A stretch of DNA of 64,000 bases, taken from contig NZ_LFYO02000003.1 of the NCBI RefSeq assembly GCF_001182825.2, forward strand, positions 248,001 through 312,000, written 5' to 3'. Origin of the DNA: Streptococcus sp. X13SY08. Its GTDB lineage: Bacteria; Bacillota; Bacilli; Lactobacillales; Streptococcaceae. Positions 36,531 to 48,349 of this stretch are shown here, piece after piece (the stretch's first letter is position 1; every line of letters begins with the position of its first letter). Both the position numbers and the translations under genes were made by a program. The notes below the pieces were generated by a model. It had not been told where the DNA came from. It saw only the letters and a list, made by a program, of their open reading frames with translations, and made no database searches.

Positions 36531-39095
36531 ATGAGATTGCCCGTGAATTGGGGGTCGCTAGTAAGGATGTTGTCGCTAAAGCGCAAGAGCTTGGTTTTGA
36601 TGTAAAAAGCCATGCGTCAAGCGTAGATGACGATAGTGCAAAAAAATTGCGGCGAGTTTTTCAAAAAAGGCTGCTCCAAAAGCTGAGGCTGCACCTGCAC
36701 CTAAAAAAGAAGTGGTTGCTGACAAAACTGTAGGAGTAAAACCGCAAGAAAATAAAGTAGAAGTTGCGCAGACAAGTGCATCAACAGAAGCAAAAACTGC
36801 CGCAACTAAGCCGGTTCGTCCGCAAAGTCGAAACTTTAAGGCAGAACGTGAAGCGCGTGCTAAAGAGCAAGCTGCTAAACGTGCCCAAGGTGGCAATGAT
36901 AACCGCCGAAATAATGATCGTAACCGTAACCAGAATAATCGTCGAGATAATCGTTCTTTCGACCGTCGCAATGGAAACAATGGACAAGGTCAAAATCGCA
37001 ATAATGATCGTCGGCAAGATAATCGCAGCGGTCGTAAGGAACAAGGTCGTAGCGATAATAACGGACAAGTTTCCCAACAACAAGCAAGACCTGCAGCTAA
37101 GATTGATTTCAAGGCACGCGCAGCAGCTCTAAAGGCAGAGCAAAACGCAGAATATGCACGTAGTAGCGAAGAGCGCTTCCGTCAAGCTCAAGAAGCTAAG
37201 AAGCAAGCCGTTACAAAACCAAAAGAAATCAAGTTTGAAGAGACAAAAGTAGAAGCAAAACCAACTGTAAAACCTGCTGCTACAGCTTCTGCAACATCAT
37301 CGGCTGCACCAGATACACGTCGCAAAAAAGCAAGACCAGATAAAGGAAAAAATACACCTGTGGCGAAGCCTGTCACAGAGCGTAAATTCCATGAATTGCC
37401 AACTGAGTTTGAGTACACTTCAGGTATGACCGTTGCAGAAATTGCAAAACGAATCAAACGTGAACCTGCTGAAATTGTTAAAAAACTCTTTATGATGGGT
37501 GTAATGGCAACGCAAAACCAATCCTTAGATGGAGATACCATTGAACTGCTTATGGCAGATTATGGTATTGAAGCACATGAAAAAGTGGAAGTGGATAATG
37601 CGGATATCGAGCGCTTCTTTGTCGAAGAAGGCTATCTCAATGAAGATAAAATGGTAGAACGTCCACCAGTTGTTACCATCATGGGACACGTTGACCACGG
37701 TAAGACAACACTTCTGGATACCCTTCGTAATTCTCGTGTTGCGACAGGCGAAGCAGGTGGTATCACTCAGCATATCGGTGCCTACCAAATTGATGCAGAT
37801 GGTAAGAAAATTACCTTCTTGGATACCCCAGGACATGCGGCCTTTACATCTATGCGTGCGCGTGGTGCTTCTGTTACAGATATTACGATTTTGATTGTAG
37901 CAGCAGATGATGGTGTTATGCCTCAAACTATCGAAGCGATTAACCATTCAAAAGCAGCTGAAGTTCCAATTATTGTTGCCATCAACAAAATTGATAAACC
38001 AGGGGCTAACCCAGAACGCGTAATCGGTGAATTGGCAGAGCATGGTGTTATTTCAACTGCTTGGGGTGGTGATTCAGAATTCGTTGAAATCTCTGCGAAA
38101 TTTGGACAGAACATTGATGAACTTCTTGAGACAGTTCTCTTGGTTGCTGAAATCCAAGAATTGAAGGCTGACCCAACGGTTCGAGCAATCGGTACAGTGA
38201 TTGAAGCCCACTTGGTATCGTTGTCGGCAATACTTTTGGTCGTGTTCGTGCCATGGTTAATGATCTTGGCCGTCGTGTGAAAACTGCGGGTCCATCAGCT
38301 CCAGTTTCTATTACTGGCTTGAATGAAGCACCAATGGCAGGTGACCACTTCGCGGTCTATGAAGATGAGAAAGCTGCACGTGCAGCGGGTGAAGAGCGTG
38401 CTAAACGTGCTCTTATGAAGCAGCGTCAAGCGACTCAGCGTGTTAGCCTCGAAAATCTCTTTGATACCCTTAAAGCTGGTGAAGTTAAGACTGTTAATGT
38501 TATCATCAAGGCAGATGTACAAGGTTCTGTTGAAGCCCTTGCGTCTTCACTTCTCAAGATTGATGTCGAAGGCGTTCGCGTCAATGTTGTCCATTCGGCT
38601 GTCGGTGCTATCAATGAGTCTGATGTGACTCTTGCAGAAGCTTCGAACGCTGTTATCATCGGTTTCAATGTTCGCCCTACTCCAATTGCTCGTCAGCAAG
38701 CAGACAGTGACGAGGTTGAAATCCGTCTCCATAGCATTATCTACAAGGTAATCGAGGAAGTCGAAGAAGCCATGAAGGGTAAATTGGACCCTGAATATCA
38801 AGAAAAGATTCTTGGGGAAGCCATTATCCGTGAAACCTTCAAAGTTTCTAAAGTTGGTACGATCGGTGGCTTCATGGTTATCAACGGTAAAGTTACTCGC
38901 GATTCGAGCGTTCGTGTCATCCGAGAAGGCGTTGTTGTCTTTGACGGCAAATTAGCAAGTTTAAAACACTATAAAGACGATGTGAAAGAGGTTGGTAATG
39001 CCCAAGAGGGTGGTCTTATGATTGAAAATTACAACGATCTCAAAGTGGACGATACCATCGAAGCTTACATCATGGAAGAAATTGTGAGAAAATAG
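36527..39095 (+). pseudogene. infB: translation initiation factor IF-2, start lost and two frameshifts
   Basis: IF-2 places fMet-tRNA on the ribosome and is essential. Segments: [15 protein letters not shown] (IF2_N, start codon missing), a long Asn/Arg/Gln-rich linker (about 36,860-37,080), second IF2_N, then the G domain [33 protein letters not shown], and the C-terminal domains to VRK. Near 36,651 one G is missing ([10 protein letters not shown] frame). At about 38,215, between IEAHL and [11 protein letters not shown], 22 codons are lost with 2 nt left (64 nt). Confidence 0.88.
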
Positions 39096-39329
39096 ACCTT
39101 CCTTTACTCATCGTTACTGCGCCTTGTCTGGCTTGAACTATGCCTTTGGCGTAAACATTCAACTCTTCGTATAGCCTATTGTGAAGTCCGCTAGTTTCTA
39201 GCAAGAGTTAAAATTGAACTCTTTCAAGTAGCGTCGTAGAACTCTCAGTTAAAAACTCTTGGTTTTATCTACCGAGAGAACAACAACTAAAAAGCTGGGC
39301 TTGCAGCCTAGCTTTTCTATTAAATAGTA
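39096..39329 (+). other. infB-rbfA gap with hairpins and a terminator
   Basis: No gene. AAGAGTT/AACTCTT (39203-39223) forms a small hairpin. AAAAGCTGGGCT (39290-39301) pairs with AGCCTAGCTTTT (39305-39316) with one mismatch and ends in TTTTCTATT, a good terminator. If it works, rbfA needs another promoter or regulated read-through, but I see no clear promoter after it. Confidence 0.6.
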
Positions 39330-40695: not shown

Positions 40696-40727
40696 AGTAG
40701 GGAAACAGAATTACTTTGGAGGAAAAT

Positions 40728-41523
40728 ATGGTATCTATTTCAAAAGAACAACATTTGGATATGTTCCGAAAAATGCAACAAATCCGTGATGTTGACATGA
40801 AACTTAACAAATTGGTTCGTCGTGGCTTTGTTCAAGGGATGACCCACTTCTCAGTTGGGGAAGAAGCAGCAGCGGTTGGACCGATTGCAAGTTTAACAGA
40901 CCAAGATATTATCTTCTCACATCACCGTGGTCATGGTCAAAAGGAAACTTTGGTTCAAATGGTATCGTCGGTGGTGGCTATGCTCTTGCAGTAGGTGCAG
41001 CACTTACTCAACAATACACGAGTCAATGAACTTGGCTGCTGTTTGGAATTTACCAGTGATCTTCTTCATCACAAACAACCGTTACGGAATTTCAACAGAT
41101 ATTACCTATTCTACTAAGATTGCTCACCTTCACGAGCGTGCGGCAGCCTATGGTATGCCAGGTCACTACGTTGAAGATGGTAATGATGTGATTGCGGTTT
41201 ACGAAAAAATGCAAGAAGTTATCGAATACGTTCGTGCAGGAAATGGTCCAGCTATGGTCGAAGTGGAATCTTATCGTTGGTTTGGTCACTCAACAGCTGA
41301 TGCTGGAACTTACCGTACAAAAGATGAAGTTAACGAGTGGAAAGCAAAAGACCCACTTAAGAAATACCGTACATATTTGACAGAAAACAAGATTGTCACA
41401 GACGAAGAGTTGGACGCTATTGAAGTTGAAGTTGCTGAACAAGTAGAAGCAGCTGTAAAATATGCTCAAGAAAGTCCAGATCCAGATATCTCAATTGCAT
41501 TCGAAGACGTATACGTTGACTAA
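40728..41523 (+). pseudogene. pdhA: pyruvate/acetoin dehydrogenase E1 alpha subunit, interrupted twice
   Basis: E1 alpha binds TPP and decarboxylates the 2-oxoacid. ATG 40728 follows GGAGG. Three segments in three frames: RKMQQIRDVDMKLNKL to SHHRGHG; KGNFGSNGIVGGGYALAVGAAL to QQY; then ESMNLAAVWNLPVIFFITNNRYGIS to the end. The first junction (about 40,938) lacks about 109 nt. The second (about 41,018) lacks 22 codons with 2 nt left, 64 nt, and removes the TPP/Mg motif GDGATNE. The gene is probably whole in the organism, since its operon partners are largely intact. Confidence 0.87.
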
Positions 41524-41884
41524 CGTAAGAAGTATGACTGGGACCTAAAGGTCTTGTCATACTACGGCAGCCACTGTAAGGTGGACTGCCTACATACCTT
41601 ACTAACTTCAGACATTTCGCAATATCGGCTAAATGTCTTCCGTGTCGTAGTTGCTAATCGTTTTGCAATAACTTTCACAGTCACAAGTGACGAAGCAAGT
41701 TCAGACAACTACGACGCTTGAACACAATTGGAAGTAATGAGGACGAAAATGGACACAGCAAAAATAGGAAGTGGCAAGTGATGCTTGCATCACACAGCTA
41801 CTTATCTTTTTTACAAAGTCCTTAGTCCGAATACGATTCTAAGTAAATGAGAGCTAGAAACGAGCAATTATAATCAGAAAATGA
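41524..41884 (+). other. hairpin-rich pdhA-pdhB gap
   Basis: No gene. Successive hairpins: GTATGAC/GTCATAC (41532-41562), GGCAGCCAC/GTGGACTGCC (41566-41590), AGACATTT/AAATGTCT (41610-41638), GTCGTAGTTG/CAACTACGAC (41644-41653 and 41706-41715), the last enclosing GTCAC/GTGAC. An inverted copy of the structured leader element lies at 41751-41821. Density of perfect stems is far above background. Confidence 0.6.
41751..41821 (-). repeat. structured element related to the 5' leader elements, inverted copy
   Basis: Read on the minus strand: GGAC closes with GTCC, AAAAAAGAT and TCCTATTTTT form the conserved stem and internal loop, then GTAGC/GCCAC and a perfect GTGATG-caag-CATCAC hairpin. The core matches copies 3 and 4 (AAAAAGATA / TTCCTATTTT). 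It lacks the AGAAAGGAA flank. Confidence 0.55.
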
Positions 41885-43023: not shown

Positions 43024-43118
43024 TCACAGGTATATGATCTATTGGCTGGTTTTCTCAATAAGAAGCCAGCTAAGCTTGTGTTTAGTAGATTTTGTAGAAT
43101 TCAACAACGAAGAAATAT

Positions 43119-43263
43119 AGAAAGGAAAAGGGTTCAATTACTTAAAAACGAAATTGAACCCGCCCTAAACACTTGGCAAAAAGAAAAAGTTCTCCTAGAT
43201 GCGAGACGTCTTCGTCGGCTTTCCTATTTTTGCTTTGTGTTTTACGGGCTTGGTATCATACAT
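43119..43263 (+). promoter_or_regulatory. structured 5' leader element, copy 3 (before pdhC)
   Basis: 145 nt: AGAAAGGAAAA, perfect P0 GGGTTCAATT/AATTGAACCC, P1 GCCCTAAACAC with GTGTTTTACGGGC, P2 GCAAAAA/TTTTTGC, core AGAAA/TCCTA, 3' flank CTTGGTATCATACAT then ATG 43264. P1 and P2 bases differ from copy 2 but pairing is kept. 43024-43118 before it holds no gene. Confidence 0.72.
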
Positions 43264-44597
43264 ATGGCAGTAGAAATTATCATGCCTAAGCTCGGTGTGG
43301 ACATGCAAGAAGGCGAAATCATCGAGTGGAAAAAGCAAGAAGGCGATGTTATCAATGAAGGCGACGTCCTCTTGGAAATGATGTCTGACAAAACAAGCAT
43401 GGAATTAGAAGCTGAAGAGTCAGGTGTTCTCGTTAAAATCGTTCGTGGCAACGGCGAAGTGGTTCCTGTAACAGAAGTGATTGGTTACATCGGTGCCGAA
43501 GGTGAAGATGCTAGTTCATTGGTTGCTGAAGCAGCTCCAGCAGTGAGTGATACTCCTGTTGTAGCGACAGCAGCCCCAGTTGAAACAGTTGCTCCTGTAG
43601 AAGCTCCAGCTCCAGCAGCAAAATCACAAGGTGGTGGCAAAGTACGTGCAACTCCAGCAGCTCGTGAAGCAGCACGTGACCTCAATATTGATCTTGGACA
43701 AGTTCCAGGAACAGGTGCTAAAGGACGTGTTCACAAGTCTGACGTAGAAGACTTCAAGGGTGCGGCACCAAAAGCAACACCACTTGCTCGTAAGATTGCT
43801 GAAGATAAAGGCAGGTGTTAGAAGCACAAGCACCTAAAGCAGAAGTTGCAGCAGCTCCAGCTAAAGAAGAAAAACCAGCTAAAGAATTGCCAGAAGGCGT
43901 TGAAATCATCAAGATGTCAGCTATGCGTAAAGCAATCTCTAAAGGAATGGTTAATTCTTACCTCACAGCTCCAACCTTCACGCTCAACTATGATATTGAC
44001 ATGACCAACCTCATGACTCTTCGTAAACAAGCGCTTGAGCCAATCATGAATAAAACAGGTCTTAAAGTGACCTTTACAGATTTGATTGGTCTTGCAGTAA
44101 CACGTACCTTGATGAAAGAAGAACACCGTTACATGAACGCTTCATTGATCAACGATGCTCAAGAAATTGAATTGCATAAATTCGTTAACCTTGGTATCGC
44201 TGTAGGTCTTGATGAAGGTCTTGTCGTGCCAGTTGTTCACGGTGCAGATAAGATGAGCTTGTCAGACTTTGTGGTTGCATCTAAAGATGTCATCAAAAAA
44301 GCACAATCTGGTAAGTTGAAAGGCGCTGAAATGTCTGGTTCTACATTCTCTATCACAAACTTGGGAATGTTCGGCACCAAAACATTTAATCCAATCATCA
44401 ACCAACCGAACTCAGCTATCCTTGGTGTATCTGCAACAGTTCAAACACCAGTTGTAGTGGATGGAGAAGTTAAAATTCGTCCAATCATGGCACTTTGCTT
44501 GACAATCGACCATCGTATTGTTGATGGTATGAATGGAGCGAAATTCATGGTGGACCTCAAGCACTTGCTTGAAAATCCATTGGAATTGTTGATCTGA
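43264..44597 (+). pseudogene. pdhC: dihydrolipoamide acetyltransferase (E2), interrupted
   Basis: E2 is the core of the dehydrogenase complex. An N-terminal lipoyl domain (AVEIIMPKLGVDMQEGEI, lipoyl Lys in EMMSDKTSMELE) leads to an Ala/Pro linker and a peripheral-subunit-binding domain (VRATPAAREAARDLNIDL). After KIAEDKG (about 43,813) the frame breaks. A second binding-domain stretch of 22 codons is missing with 2 nt left (64 nt). The catalytic domain follows intact with DHRIVDGMNGAKF. Start is ATG 43264. Confidence 0.87.
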
Positions 44598-44640
44598 TAA
44601 AGAAGTTGGATTGTAAAGAAAAAAACTTTAAAGAAAATAG
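44598..44640 (+). other. short spacer after pdhC
   Basis: AT-rich spacer with no hairpin of note; it leads directly into a non-start-linked copy of the structured element. Confidence 0.4.
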
Positions 44641-44772
44641 AGAAAGGAAGTAGAACGAGTTCGTGAGATTTGAACACGAACTAAATGCTCGGAATTTAGA
44701 TAGACTTTCTTGGATGCAAGCATCCTACGTAAGTCTCCTAAAATTCGGTCGCATTTGGGCGTTCTGTTTCTT
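44641..44772 (+). repeat. structured element copy not linked to a start codon (pdhC-pdhD gap)
   Basis: It starts AGAAAGGAA like the leader copies. P0 AGTTCGTG/CACGAACT, P1 AAATGC (44683-44688) with GCATTT (44751-44756), P2 GAATTT (44692-44697) with AAATTC (44741-44746), core AGAT (44698-44701) opposite TCCTA (44736-44740). All helices use different bases from the other copies. It lies in tandem just before copy 4 and has no ATG after it. Confidence 0.65.
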
Positions 44773-44804
44773 AAATAGCACATAGTCTTATAAGACAACT
44801 AGAC

Positions 44805-44922
44805 AGAAAGGAATTGAACCCGACCGGAGAGCTTGGGAAAAAGATAAATCGATCGGAAAATCAGGATTTTCCACGATTTCCTATTTTCCAGTCGCTCTCT
44901 AGTCGGCCTAGGTATCTTAATT
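44805..44922 (+). promoter_or_regulatory. structured 5' leader element, copy 4 (before pdhD)
   Basis: 118 nt: AGAAAGGAATTGAACCCG, P1 CCGGAGAGC with GCTCTCTAGTCGG, P2 GGGAAAA with TTTTCC, core AGATA/TTCCTA, P3 GGAAAATC/GATTTTCC, 3' flank CTAGGTATCTTAATT then ATG 44923. P0 is absent, as in copy 1. Confidence 0.72.
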
Positions 44923-46680
44923 ATGGCAATTGAAATCATCATGCCTAAACTTGGCGTTGACATGCAAGAAGGCGAAATCATCGAGTGGAAAAAACAAGAA
45001 GGTGATGTCGTAAACGAAGGTGATGTGATCCTTGAGATGATGTCAGATAAAACGGGCATGGAATTGGAAGCAGAAGACTCAGGTGTTCTCATTAAAATCG
45101 TTCGCGGGAACGGTGAAGTTGTTCCTGTAACGGAAGTCATCGGTTATATCGGTGCTGAAGGGGAATCTGTTGACTCTGCTGCAGCCCCTGCTCCAGCAGA
45201 AGTGGCACAAGCAACTGCTGACTTGAAAGCAGCTGGTTTGGAAGTTCCTGCAACTCCTGCAGCAGCTGCAGCCCAAGCTCCAAAAGCTGAATTGGCAGCA
45301 AATGAATATGATATGGTTGTTGTCGGTGGTGGACCTGCAGGTTACTACGCAGCCATCAAAGGTGCTCAATTGGGTGGTAAAATCGCGATTGTTGAGAAAT
45401 ATGAATTTGGTGGAACATGCTTGAACAAAGGATGTATCCCAACGAAGACTTACCTCAAAAACGCTGAAATTCTTGATGGTCTCAAGATTGCAGCTGGTCG
45501 TGGTATCAACTTAGCCTCTACTAACTACACAATCGACATGGATAAAGCAGTCGACTTCAAGAACTCAGTGGTTAAAACTCTTACAGGTGGTGTCGCTGGC
45601 CTCTTGAAAGCTAACAAAGTAACGGTCTTTAACGGTCTTGGTCAAGTGAACCCAGATAAAACAGTTACCATCGGTTCTGAAACCATCAAAGGTCGCTCTA
45701 TCATTCTTGCAACTGGTTCAAAAGTTTCTCGTATCAACATCCCAGGTATTGATTCTAAGTTGGTATTAACATCTGATGATATCCTTGATTTGCGTGAAAT
45801 TCCTAAATCACTCACTGTTATGGGTGGTGGTGTTGTCGGTGTCGAGCTTGGCCTTGTTTATGCATCATACGGTACAGAAGTAACAGTTGTCGAAATGGCT
45901 GACCGTATCATCCCAGGTGTGGACCGTGAAGTGTCTGTTGAATTGCAAAAAGTCCTTTCTAAGAAAGGTATGAAATTCTTAACATCTGTTGGTGTTGAAA
46001 AAATCGTTGAAGCAAACAATCAATTGACTATTAAGTTGAATGATGGTTCTGAGGTTGTTTCTGAAAAAGCTTTGCTTTCTATCGGACGTGTACCACAGTT
46101 GGCTGGACTTGAAAATCTTAACCTCGAAATGGATCGTGGACGTATCAAAGTCAATGCTTACCAAGAAACATCCATCCCAGGGATCTACGCACCAGGGGAT
46201 GTCAACGGTACGAAAATGCTTGCCCACGCTGCTTACCGTATGGGTGAAGTGGCTGCAGAAAATGCTATCAACGGCAACCACCACAAAGCGAAATTGGACT
46301 TCACTCCAGCAGCGGTTTATACACATCCAGAAATCGCCATGGTTGGTTTGACAGAAGAACAAGCGCGTGAGCAATACGGTGATATCCTCATCGGTAAAAA
46401 TAGCTTTACTGGTAACGGTCGTGCCATCGCTTCTAATGAAGCACACGGTTTCGTTAAAGTTATTGCTGACGCTAAATACCATGAAGTTCTTGGTGTTCAC
46501 ATCATCGGTCCAGTTGCTGCTGAAATGATTAACGAAGCTGCAACTATTATGGAATCTGAATTGACAGTTGATGATGTAGCAGCATCAATCCATGGTCACC
46601 CAACATTCTCAGAAGTAATGTATGAAGCCTTCTTGGATGTATTGGGAGTGGCTATCCACAACCCACCAAAAAGAAAATAA
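44923..46680 (+). CDS. pdhD: dihydrolipoamide dehydrogenase (E3) with N-terminal lipoyl domain
   Basis: E3 reoxidises the lipoyl arm of E2 using FAD and NAD+. The 585-aa protein has an extra N-terminal lipoyl domain nearly identical to that of E2 (residues 1-80, lipoyl Lys in MMSDKTGMELE) and an Ala-rich linker. The flavoprotein follows: VVVGGGPAGYYAAIKGAQLGG, redox Cys pair GGTCLNKGCIPTK, NAD site VMGGGVVGVELG, and C-terminal His-Glu HGHPTFSE. A lipoylated E3 is typical of streptococci. It is intact. Confidence 0.94.
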   Translation: MAIEIIMPKLGVDMQEGEIIEWKKQEGDVVNEGDVILEMMSDKTGMELEAEDSGVLIKIVRGNGEVVPVTEVIGYIGAEGESVDSAAAPAPAEVAQATADLKAAGLEVPATPAAAAAQAPKAELAANEYDMVVVGGGPAGYYAAIKGAQLGGKIAIVEKYEFGGTCLNKGCIPTKTYLKNAEILDGLKIAAGRGINLASTNYTIDMDKAVDFKNSVVKTLTGGVAGLLKANKVTVFNGLGQVNPDKTVTIGSETIKGRSIILATGSKVSRINIPGIDSKLVLTSDDILDLREIPKSLTVMGGGVVGVELGLVYASYGTEVTVVEMADRIIPGVDREVSVELQKVLSKKGMKFLTSVGVEKIVEANNQLTIKLNDGSEVVSEKALLSIGRVPQLAGLENLNLEMDRGRIKVNAYQETSIPGIYAPGDVNGTKMLAHAAYRMGEVAAENAINGNHHKAKLDFTPAAVYTHPEIAMVGLTEEQAREQYGDILIGKNSFTGNGRAIASNEAHGFVKVIADAKYHEVLGVHIIGPVAAEMINEAATIMESELTVDDVAASIHGHPTFSEVMYEAFLDVLGVAIHNPPKRK

Positions 46681-47240
46681 GACTATCATTTTCTAACTGC
46701 TAAAGCAGTTGAAAATGAACGGCAAGCACTATGGTGTCTTGCCTAAGTCTCAAACTAGAAAATGACCACTGTTAGTATCGAACAGTGGTCATTTTCGTCA
46801 TAAGTTTGTTAAATCTATGGACTAAAGTCTATGATTTAACACGCCAGTCGCTATGGCGAACTGGCTAACTCTTAAACTAAAAATAAGCAACAAGTATAAT
46901 CGACTTGTCGCTTTATTTTGTCGTAATCAATTCTTATCTAATTGTTAAAGCAAGGGATAGTAAGTAGCAAGCACTATGCTGAATTGCTATGTGAGCTGTC
47001 GGAGTCGATTTTACTCCGACGAGTGAAGCTAGTGAAGGTTTTAGCCAAGGTCCTGACAGGACTTGGCGTAGAAAATATAGTAATCGCAGATTTTCTTAAA
47101 ACTTGCCTAAGTCTTAAACTAGAAAATAGTCACTGTTATTCTCGAACAGTGGCTATTATCATCATAAATCTAGTTAAAGGAACTAAAGCCTATGATTTTC
47201 TTAAGATTCTATCTGGCGTGTGAGCCGTTCTATCGGGTGA
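46681..47240 (+). repeat. cluster of hairpin repeats between pdhD and lplA
   Basis: Three diverged units share a layout. Hairpin H1 has a CTATGG-type loop (GGCAAGCAC/GTGTCTTGCC at 46721-46743; GCCAGT/ACTGGC at 46843-46865). Linker TAAGTCTCAAACTAGAAAAT. Hairpin H2 has a 7-nt loop ending TCG (46758-46796, a perfect 16-bp stem; 46880-46919; 47125-47157). H2 stems differ in sequence but keep pairing. A further hairpin GTTAAATC/GATTTAAC spans 46808-46840, and CATTTTC/GAAAATG at 46687-46717 directly follows pdhD. No protein gene is seen. Confidence 0.65.
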
Positions 47241-47311
47241 CGATCAGTTCTGATTTCCATTAGAAAGGATAGGATTTTCCTTCTAAAATATGGTCATTTT
47301 TTGTAAAATTT

Positions 47312-47319
47312 GTTATAAT
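47312..47319 (+). promoter_or_regulatory. lplA promoter (extended -10)
   Basis: TGTTATAAT gives an extended -10 (TATAAT 47314-47319), 41 nt before the lplA ATG. The -35 region is T-rich and weak. Confidence 0.6.
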
Positions 47320-47359
47320 AACTTGGAGATGTTATAAAAGTAATACTCTGGAGGAACCC

Positions 47360-48349
47360 ATGAAATATATTATTAATAATTCAAATGACCCTGCCTACAA
47401 TATCGCACTTGAAGCCTTTGCTTTCAAAGAATTAACAGATATCGATGAAATTTTTATTCTTTGGATCAATGAACCTGCTATCATCATCGGTAAGCACCAA
47501 AATGCTATTCAAGAAATCAATAAGGAATACACAGATGCGCATGGTATACATGTAGTTCGTCGTTTGTCAGGTGGTGGTGCGGTTTACCATGATCTCAATA
47601 ACCTTAACTACACCATTATTTCTAATAAGGCGACCGAAGGAGCTTTTGACTTTAAAACCTTCTCAAAACCGGTTATCGATACCTTGGCAACTCTTGGTGT
47701 AGAGGCGAATTTCACTGGTCGAAATGACCTTGAAATTGATGGTAAAAAAATCTGTGGCAATGCGCAAGCTTATTCAAAAGGTCGCATGATGCACCATGGT
47801 TGCTTGCTTTTTGATGTGGATATGTCTGTTTTGGGTGATGCTCTCAAAGTTTCAAAAGATAAAATCGAGTCCAAAGGTGTCAAATCTGTGCGTGCCCGCG
47901 TAACCAACATCAACAACGAATTACCAGAAAAAATGACTGTTTTGGAGTTCAAAGACGCTATCCTTGAACAAATGAAAAAAGAATACCCAGATATGGATGA
48001 ATACATTTTGTCAGAAGATGAGTCGGCTCGCATCCAAGAGATCCGTGATACTCAATTTGGCACATGGGAATGGAACTTCGGAACAACTCCTGAGTACACA
48101 GTAGAGCGCAATGTCCGCTACCCAGCAGGTAAAATTACTAGCTATATCAAGACAGAAAAATCAGTCATCGAGTCTATCAAGATTTATGGAGACTTCTTCG
48201 GTATTGGTGATGCATCTAACATTGAAAAATTGTTGGTAGGAACACGCTACGAGTACAAAGGTGTTCTTGAAAAATTACAAACAGTGGATATTAACTATTA
48301 CTTCTCACGCATGACAACAGAAGAAGTAGCCAAATCAATTGTAGCTTAA
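47360..48349 (+). CDS. lplA: lipoate-protein ligase A
   Basis: LplA activates scavenged lipoate and attaches it to lipoyl domains. The 329-aa protein shows LWINEPAIIIGKHQNAIQEIN (about residues 32-52), the lipoate-binding VRRLSGGGAVYHDLNNLNYT (about 70-89), and RNDLEIDGKKICGNAQA with the catalytic Lys. Its place right after the dehydrogenase genes fits: the lipoyl domains of PdhC and PdhD are its substrates. ATG follows TGGAGG. Confidence 0.94.
   Translation: MKYIINNSNDPAYNIALEAFAFKELTDIDEIFILWINEPAIIIGKHQNAIQEINKEYTDAHGIHVVRRLSGGGAVYHDLNNLNYTIISNKATEGAFDFKTFSKPVIDTLATLGVEANFTGRNDLEIDGKKICGNAQAYSKGRMMHHGCLLFDVDMSVLGDALKVSKDKIESKGVKSVRARVTNINNELPEKMTVLEFKDAILEQMKKEYPDMDEYILSEDESARIQEIRDTQFGTWEWNFGTTPEYTVERNVRYPAGKITSYIKTEKSVIESIKIYGDFFGIGDASNIEKLLVGTRYEYKGVLEKLQTVDINYYFSRMTTEEVAKSIVA

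Follow-up and report, generated by a model that had tools for sequence, protein, structure and literature searches.

A three-hairpin repeat behind pdhD and at many other sites in Streptococcaceae, probably a non-autonomous mobile DNA element

The gap between pdhD (44923-46680) and lplA (47360-48349; TIGR00545) in Streptococcus sp. X13SY08 contains two intact copies of a three-hairpin repeat unit, a third copy that is broken, and one more, in reverse orientation, nested inside the third. It lies in the window, the whole stretch of 64,000 nucleotides that was analysed. A covariance model of the unit, R1, was built from 20 units, of which three are stretches of the window; this seed excludes two false positives that fell in coding sequence, along with other near-duplicates. 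Scanning the window with R1 gave five strong matches and one weak match. The features are as follows, with gene names other than pdhB, pdhD and lplA read off the ORF sequences, without database assignment.

39155-39239, plus strand: weak R1 match between infB and rbfA (21.8 bits, E 0.0003)
41524-41650, plus strand: unit between pdhA and pdhB, directly 3' of the pdhA stop codon (41521-41523); R1 match 41557-41650, 64.3 bits
46681-46803, plus strand: unit 1, starting directly 3' of the pdhD stop codon (46678-46680); R1 match 46712-46803, 96 bits
46681-46684 and 46746-46749, plus strand: closing helix P1 of unit 1, with hairpins H0 (46686-46718) and H1 (46721-46743)
46758-46773 and 46781-46796, plus strand: stem of hairpin H2 of unit 1, followed by the tail GTCATAA (46797-46803)
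46804-46926, plus strand: unit 2, with H0 (46808-46840), H1 (46843-46865), H2 (46880-46919) and tail GTCGTAA (46920-46926); R1 match 46834-46926, 83 bits
46934-46987, plus strand: left half of unit 3, an H0-like part and the start of H1, 72% to unit 1 (repeat family D2)
46984-47106, minus strand: unit nested within H1 of unit 3; R1 match 46984-47076
46984-46987 and 47103-47106: TTGC (plus strand) flanking the nested unit
47102-47167, plus strand: right half of unit 3, with the end of H1, the linker, H2 (47122-47160) and the tail
47168-47200, plus strand: fragment like H0 of unit 2 (17 nt, 94%; repeat family D3), from its sequence perhaps a truncated further unit
47291-47319, plus strand: promoter-like site for lplA, downstream of every unit; 10/12 consensus match, the second hexamer being preceded by TG

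Units 1 and 2 lie where the original prediction had drawn two-hairpin repeats (46721-46803 and 46843-46925), and the perfect 16-bp H2 stem that it ascribed to the first is present. The third repeat that it set at about 47,100-47,165 exists but is not whole, its two halves being split by the reverse unit. H0, the unit after pdhA and the weak match between infB and rbfA were absent from that account. This weak match is possibly a decayed unit, and at three other loci good units lie directly behind an infB-like gene, the same site. The gap (46681-47300) folds far better than shuffled sequence (z -9.7; 0 of 20 shuffles reach it). At the Rfam gathering score, RNase P alone matches in the window, with no repeat-unit family, and a permissive scan of 44590-47380 gives four unrelated sub-threshold matches and nothing else; the three-hairpin unit is no known Rfam family. 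No phage or plasmid sequence in the collections queried by BLAST matched the gap.

In order, the unit consists of a weak closing helix (P1) that encloses the bulged hairpins H0 and H1, a conserved linker, H2, and finally GTCG-TAA. Unit 1, folded as single-stranded DNA, shows P1 (GACT/AGTC), H0, H1, an H2 of 16 bp with a 7-nt loop, and GTCATAA (z -10.8). H2 geometry was resolved in 65 of 120 distinct units. Its stem is exactly 16 bp long in 51 of these, its loop is 7 nt long in 55 and ends in TATCG in 36, and the GTCG tail is present in 55; many units read CGTC at the end of H2. Counts of H0 and of flanking tetramers used the 79 units with an ACG anchor (59 for tails, 47 for tetramer pairs). 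Folding finds H0 in 53 of the 79, against 14.75 expected from mononucleotide shuffles, with a loop of CTAAAG or CTGAAG in 28 of the 53. An ungapped search found H0 in three of the 79 (control 1.16), unsuccessful because the hairpin is bulged. P1 is modestly supported across 73 units, with a mean complementary run of 3.77 vs 3.20 for shuffled partners (2 of 300 reach it), and a compensated change was seen by eye at pdhD, AGACT/AGTCT here vs AGGCT/AGCCT in S. varani. Across units the loops keep their sequence and the stems their length, and the linker and bulges are likewise conserved. At four loci (L010, L011, L040 and L062) another long repeat (GTGGGACAGAAATCGG..., GTGGAAGATTC...) replaces the top of H2 in several units; judged by these sequences, other repeats seem to land in H2.

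That the stems vary while loops and linker are kept, first noticed in the pdhD-lplA gap, extends to units from elsewhere. In the 20-unit seed alignment, 90.9% of cells are paired and 23 of 25 pairs show a double change (18.7 in shuffles; 1 of 500 reach it), with a covariation score of 0.799, compared with 0.227 for shuffled alignments (none of the 500 as high) and no more than 0.237 for slid controls. An alignment of the 120 distinct units fitted to R1 has 89.6% of cells paired and double changes in all 25 pairs (22.1 in shuffled alignments, of which 4 of 500 do as well). Its covariation score is 0.672 vs 0.182 in shuffles (0 of 500 reach it), with slid controls no higher than 0.163. Since double-change counts are also high in the shuffles, it is the score and the paired fraction that carry weight. 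By the score of the 120 the units are homologous, as had been supposed of those in the gap.

A covariance search for more units, proposed with the original prediction, showed that, of 284 Streptococcus genomes, 257 have an R1 match at E<=0.001. Six of the 257 are doubtful, with best E-values above 1e-10, and no more than 15 candidates were scored per genome, so that copy numbers are minima. The genome studied here has 14 matches at the same threshold (150 candidates scored). Its further sites lie behind or near genes resembling obgE, recR, a U32-type peptidase gene, grpE, metK, carA and suf genes, and one unit is near a T-box-like leader. In the family Streptococcaceae, 104 of 147 genomes and four of ten genera are positive, with up to 14 matches. 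Three genera other than Streptococcus account for 15 of these genomes (11 in g81, three in g75, and one in g78 by a single match of E 4e-10), which rules out confinement to Streptococcus. A sample of 295 genomes from the order included 42 positive genomes in Streptococcus and three others with weak matches (E 6e-4 to 1.6e-7 at first scoring); on deeper scoring, four of the five places matched outside the family look by eye like ordinary terminators, the fifth, L215, being ambiguous. The exact H1 pattern is found in 13 stretches of GTDB contigs, each with Streptococcus in its title; IMG/VR contigs lack it. The cluster between pdhD and lplA is thus real but is no local oddity, as its members occur across genomes of the family.

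Units tend to begin just behind genes. The upstream gene is co-directional at 29 of the 30 top-scoring loci and at eight of ten further loci of this genome. A co-directional ORF of at least 100 aa lies within 400 nt upstream of 50 of the 67 distinct first units. H0 starts within -6 to +15 nt of that gene's stop codon in 39 of the 50, most commonly at 7-8 nt; uniform placement within 400 nt would put about three of the 50 in the -6 to +15 interval. These 39 span 13 of 22 upstream gene families, and their stop codon is TAA in 33, in a sample that leans to high-scoring units and in which many share orthologous sites. Occupied sites behind groEL-, pheS- and infB-like genes recur in several species.

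Such anchoring tight to stop codons could reflect function instead of mobility. The units might be functional RNA elements at mRNA 3' ends, serving stability, processing or termination, that protect or trim the upstream gene's transcripts and have been copied for their usefulness. Their position behind co-directional stop codons, their very stable hairpins and the repeated occupation of the same genes in several species all favour this explanation, which we nevertheless consider unlikely, though it is the strongest of the alternatives. A run of at least four T within 8 nt after H2 is found in 0 of 52 well-formed units (52 of the 120 were used), and the region 46600-47400 has no terminator-like site on the plus strand, its two such sites both being on the minus strand; an intrinsic terminator or attenuator on the coding strand is therefore rejected. 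Attenuation of lplA, one of the roles first suggested, is not supported, given the same minus-strand sites and the promoter-like site downstream of all units, itself only suggestive since six promoter-like sites were found in 46600-47400 vs 2.7 expected. Transcript-end stability, another suggested role, loses ground with the missing T runs and with the mismatch counts given below. Units also separate neighbours that seem to share an operon (pdhA-pdhB, grpE-dnaK, carA-carB), one lies reversed within another unit, and most of the best-matching pdhD loci do without one.

Mismatches within the stems bear on the strand and the molecule in which pairing is kept. Under selection on a plus-strand RNA, G-U pairs would be tolerated and A-C mismatches would not. 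RNase P of the same genus served as control (30 sequences, 87 pairs) and shows 133 G-T and two A-C in 2591 cells, on a structure obtained from RNAalifold, which favours G-U. The stems of all 120 units show 87 G-T and 76 A-C in 2609 cells. The 72 better units show 30 G-T and 31 A-C in 1711 cells when the pair that is Watson-Crick in fewer than 60% is omitted, and 31 and 34 unfiltered. In the 43 best-paired units, chosen for few mismatches (at least 23 of 25 Watson-Crick pairs), there are seven G-T and 12 A-C in 1075 cells; at the RNase P rate of 5%, and allowing for selection, about 40 G-T pairs would be expected. Because G-T is no commoner than A-C, the pairing appears to be kept as DNA rather than as this RNA strand. 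Equal counts would also arise if most copies were dead and decaying neutrally, and our confidence that the units are mobile DNA is lowered by the fact that the best-paired set is itself selected. On this reading, strong covariation in intergenic DNA need not signal a functional RNA, and a count of G-T vs A-C separates the two cases cheaply.

The nested copy in unit 3 records an insertion: when the reverse unit is taken out and its flanks are joined, the H1 sequence of unit 3 is whole again, and GCAA stands on either side. Occupation of the pdhD site is patchy. Among the 30 best-matching pdhD loci, units are found in three, those of this genome, S. varani (G013) and G144; the other 27 are without a unit, three of these being cut by contig ends within 300 nt, and in many unit-free loci the stop codon is followed by what looks like an ordinary terminator. 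G057 and G072, outside the best 30, carry units at pdhD as well. Unit arrays run head to tail. In G043, the units at the nine loci inspected, of at least 15 matches, are 92-100% identical to one another over 139 nt, and eight have the same length. Family-wide copies, arrays, the nested insertion and patchy occupation together bear out the earlier suggestion of a multiplying repeat.

We think it probable, with moderate confidence, that the units are a non-autonomous mobile DNA repeat of Streptococcaceae that is moved as folded single-stranded DNA. Stems that stay paired yet tolerate no G-U would also result from neutral palindromes, with the pairing kept by template-switch (quasi-palindrome) correction and the spread due only to tandem duplication and to recombination after natural transformation, with no dedicated mobility. 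G147 has, at L191 (G147:C36:20400-21900), three near-perfect head-to-tail copies of a composite of about 198 bp that contains the unit, which is in keeping with this. We judge it improbable all the same, since inverted-repeat correction leaves the conserved loops, linker, bulges and stem lengths unexplained, and the narrow spacing behind unrelated genes and the nested insertion likewise speak against it.

A second repeat of about 110 nt (AAGATACAAAG...GTGTTCAATT; AAGATACAAAGCCCGTAAAATGC ... GTGTTCAATT) is present at L028:1387-1496 and at many other loci. It emerged from a search for empty sites among relatives of G030, which proved too distant for empty sites. Many of the Streptococcus genomes searched have multiple copies of this companion repeat, which combines with the three-hairpin unit into composites, above all in G043. 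That the units are modules carried by the companion, with no movement of their own, is very unlikely: in all nine inspected G043 loci the unit has AAGATA to its left and, to its right, companion-like sequence of the GCAAAGGGCGT type, and companion-linked units also occur at four further loci (L014, L024, L028 and L031), but arrays behind groEL-like, pheS-like and pdhD genes lack the companion in the stretches viewed, and the one companion-pattern match in the window (0.2 expected) lies away from the units.

A mobile DNA repeat of this sort belongs in kind with REP, BOX, EFAR and MITE repeats; in build, with three hairpins of fixed geometry, a start at the stop codon, and equal G-T and A-C, it matches none of the systems tested here. 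RUP elements are 107 bp long with IS-related ends, and SPRITE elements have an 18-bp stem followed by a T-rich tract; no T-rich tract follows H2 in the 52 well-formed units. Non-autonomous derivatives of IS200/IS605 (PATE-like) have bulged hairpins, insert beside a short tetranucleotide and do so in a strand-specific orientation; the units resemble this general description in their bulged hairpins, putative target tetranucleotide and strand-specific orientation, and differ in that several genomes carry units without a match to Y1 transposase. EFAR elements, about 170 bp long, have two stem-loops in variable assembly and insert into stem-loops, a general description that is the basis of their likeness to the units, in a different host family. 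EFAR of Enterococcus faecalis are named as MITEs in the portion of PMC3733652 drawn on here.

The same portion describes REP sequences with RAYT transposases, in GTAG and CGTC super-families, as small, multi-copy, intergenic palindromes and proposed miniature mobile DNA (PMC3733652). The units are likewise small, palindromic, multi-copy and intergenic, and many have CGTC at the end of H2. A REP in those passages is a single palindrome of 20-40 bp with a GTAG or CGTC tag, the CGTC stems being 8-9 bp with loops of 4-5, and a RAYT (Y1) gene is there a feature of genomes with GTAG REPs, those with CGTC REPs being described without one (PMC3733652); the word Firmicutes is absent from the text of that paper. 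The units differ in having three hairpins in about 120 nt and an H2 of 16 bp with a 7-nt loop. With three hairpins and this H2 geometry the unit falls outside the GTAG and CGTC REPs, and several unit-carrying genomes give no PF01797 match.

BOX repeats of pneumococcus and S. suis are, in the part of PMC3049150 used here, modular, apparently mobile and intergenic, and some supply stop codons. The units are modular, apparently mobile, intergenic streptococcal repeats too, but R1 finds no match in eight BOX loci up to E 1. The BOX primer site is present in 93 of 284 Streptococcus genomes vs units in 257 of 284, and was not found in this genome even when one mismatch was allowed. The lack of an R1 match and of the primer site here leads us to reject BOX, a repeat of boxA, boxB and boxC modules, as the identity of the unit. 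ScRE and sanguinis-hairpin, listed in Table 1 of a 2010 survey as structured streptococcal motifs of ambiguous RNA status with no Rfam accession (PMC2864571), could overlap part of the unit, as far as their table entries tell. A class of mobile or repeat candidates figures in the part of PMC11109978 consulted, and to judge by these portions either survey may already contain part of the family. The text of PMC2705793 makes no mention of RepSU. The literature covered held no description recognisable as the three-hairpin unit, which is weak evidence of absence as most subscription papers and supplements lay outside its scope.

No enzyme that mobilises the units was found. Y1 transposase (PF01797) is encoded in 178 of 284 Streptococcus genomes, including this one. 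There is no PF01797 match in unit-carrying genomes such as G164 (at least 15 units), G140, G150 and G138, and Y1 transposase is rejected as an obligate partner on that account. R1 finds no match in six Y1 loci. In one genome (G001), a 763-bp Y1-transposase element has near-identical copies at the four loci compared (L210-L213); the ends of that one element and those of the unit are not alike by eye.

How a mobile unit of this kind might move is suggested by its termini. In 36 of the 79 units with the anchor, a TAA begins 41-44 nt before the ACG of H1 (a higher peak, of 27 at -29, lies within H0), and the tail tetramer is GTAA in 41 of 59. Together these suggest a model in which the element sits behind RTAA and ends in RTAA. 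Matching 5' and 3' tetramers were found in 20 of 47 units vs 16.3 in shuffles (32 of 1000 reach it), which is a weak test, and the insertion point in G043 fits the target rule inexactly. A copy of about 120 nt would fold as single-stranded DNA, with H0 and H1 in a short closing helix, then the 16-bp H2 and the GTCG-TAA tail. A putative enzyme acting in trans would recognise the folded strand and insert the copy beside an RYAA-type tetranucleotide. Since the stop codon TAA is part of RTAA, and RTAA also forms the end of the element, a copy would land harmlessly behind a gene and leave a new site, and we propose that head-to-tail arrays grow because each copy leaves such a fresh site. More tentatively, the linker may act as a guide that base-pairs (helix P1) with the stop-codon target, a single-strand enzyme of HUH type or relaxase-like placing copies behind TAA and each insertion regenerating the site. 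If the units are mobile DNA, most streptococci carry a class of repeat outside Rfam, characterised less by its sequence than by its shape, that spares genes by landing behind their stop codons. It would serve as a natural test case for the recognition of folded single strands.

Two further observations concern the same window. The gap between pdhC and pdhD (44597-44923) seems by eye to contain additional short hairpins; it has no R1 match, and a strict inverted-repeat search finds none there. The genes infB (36712-39095), pdhA (40716-41523) and pdhC (43042-44597) are each broken into two ORFs that overlap in different frames, pointing to either assembly errors in this genome or real frameshifts.
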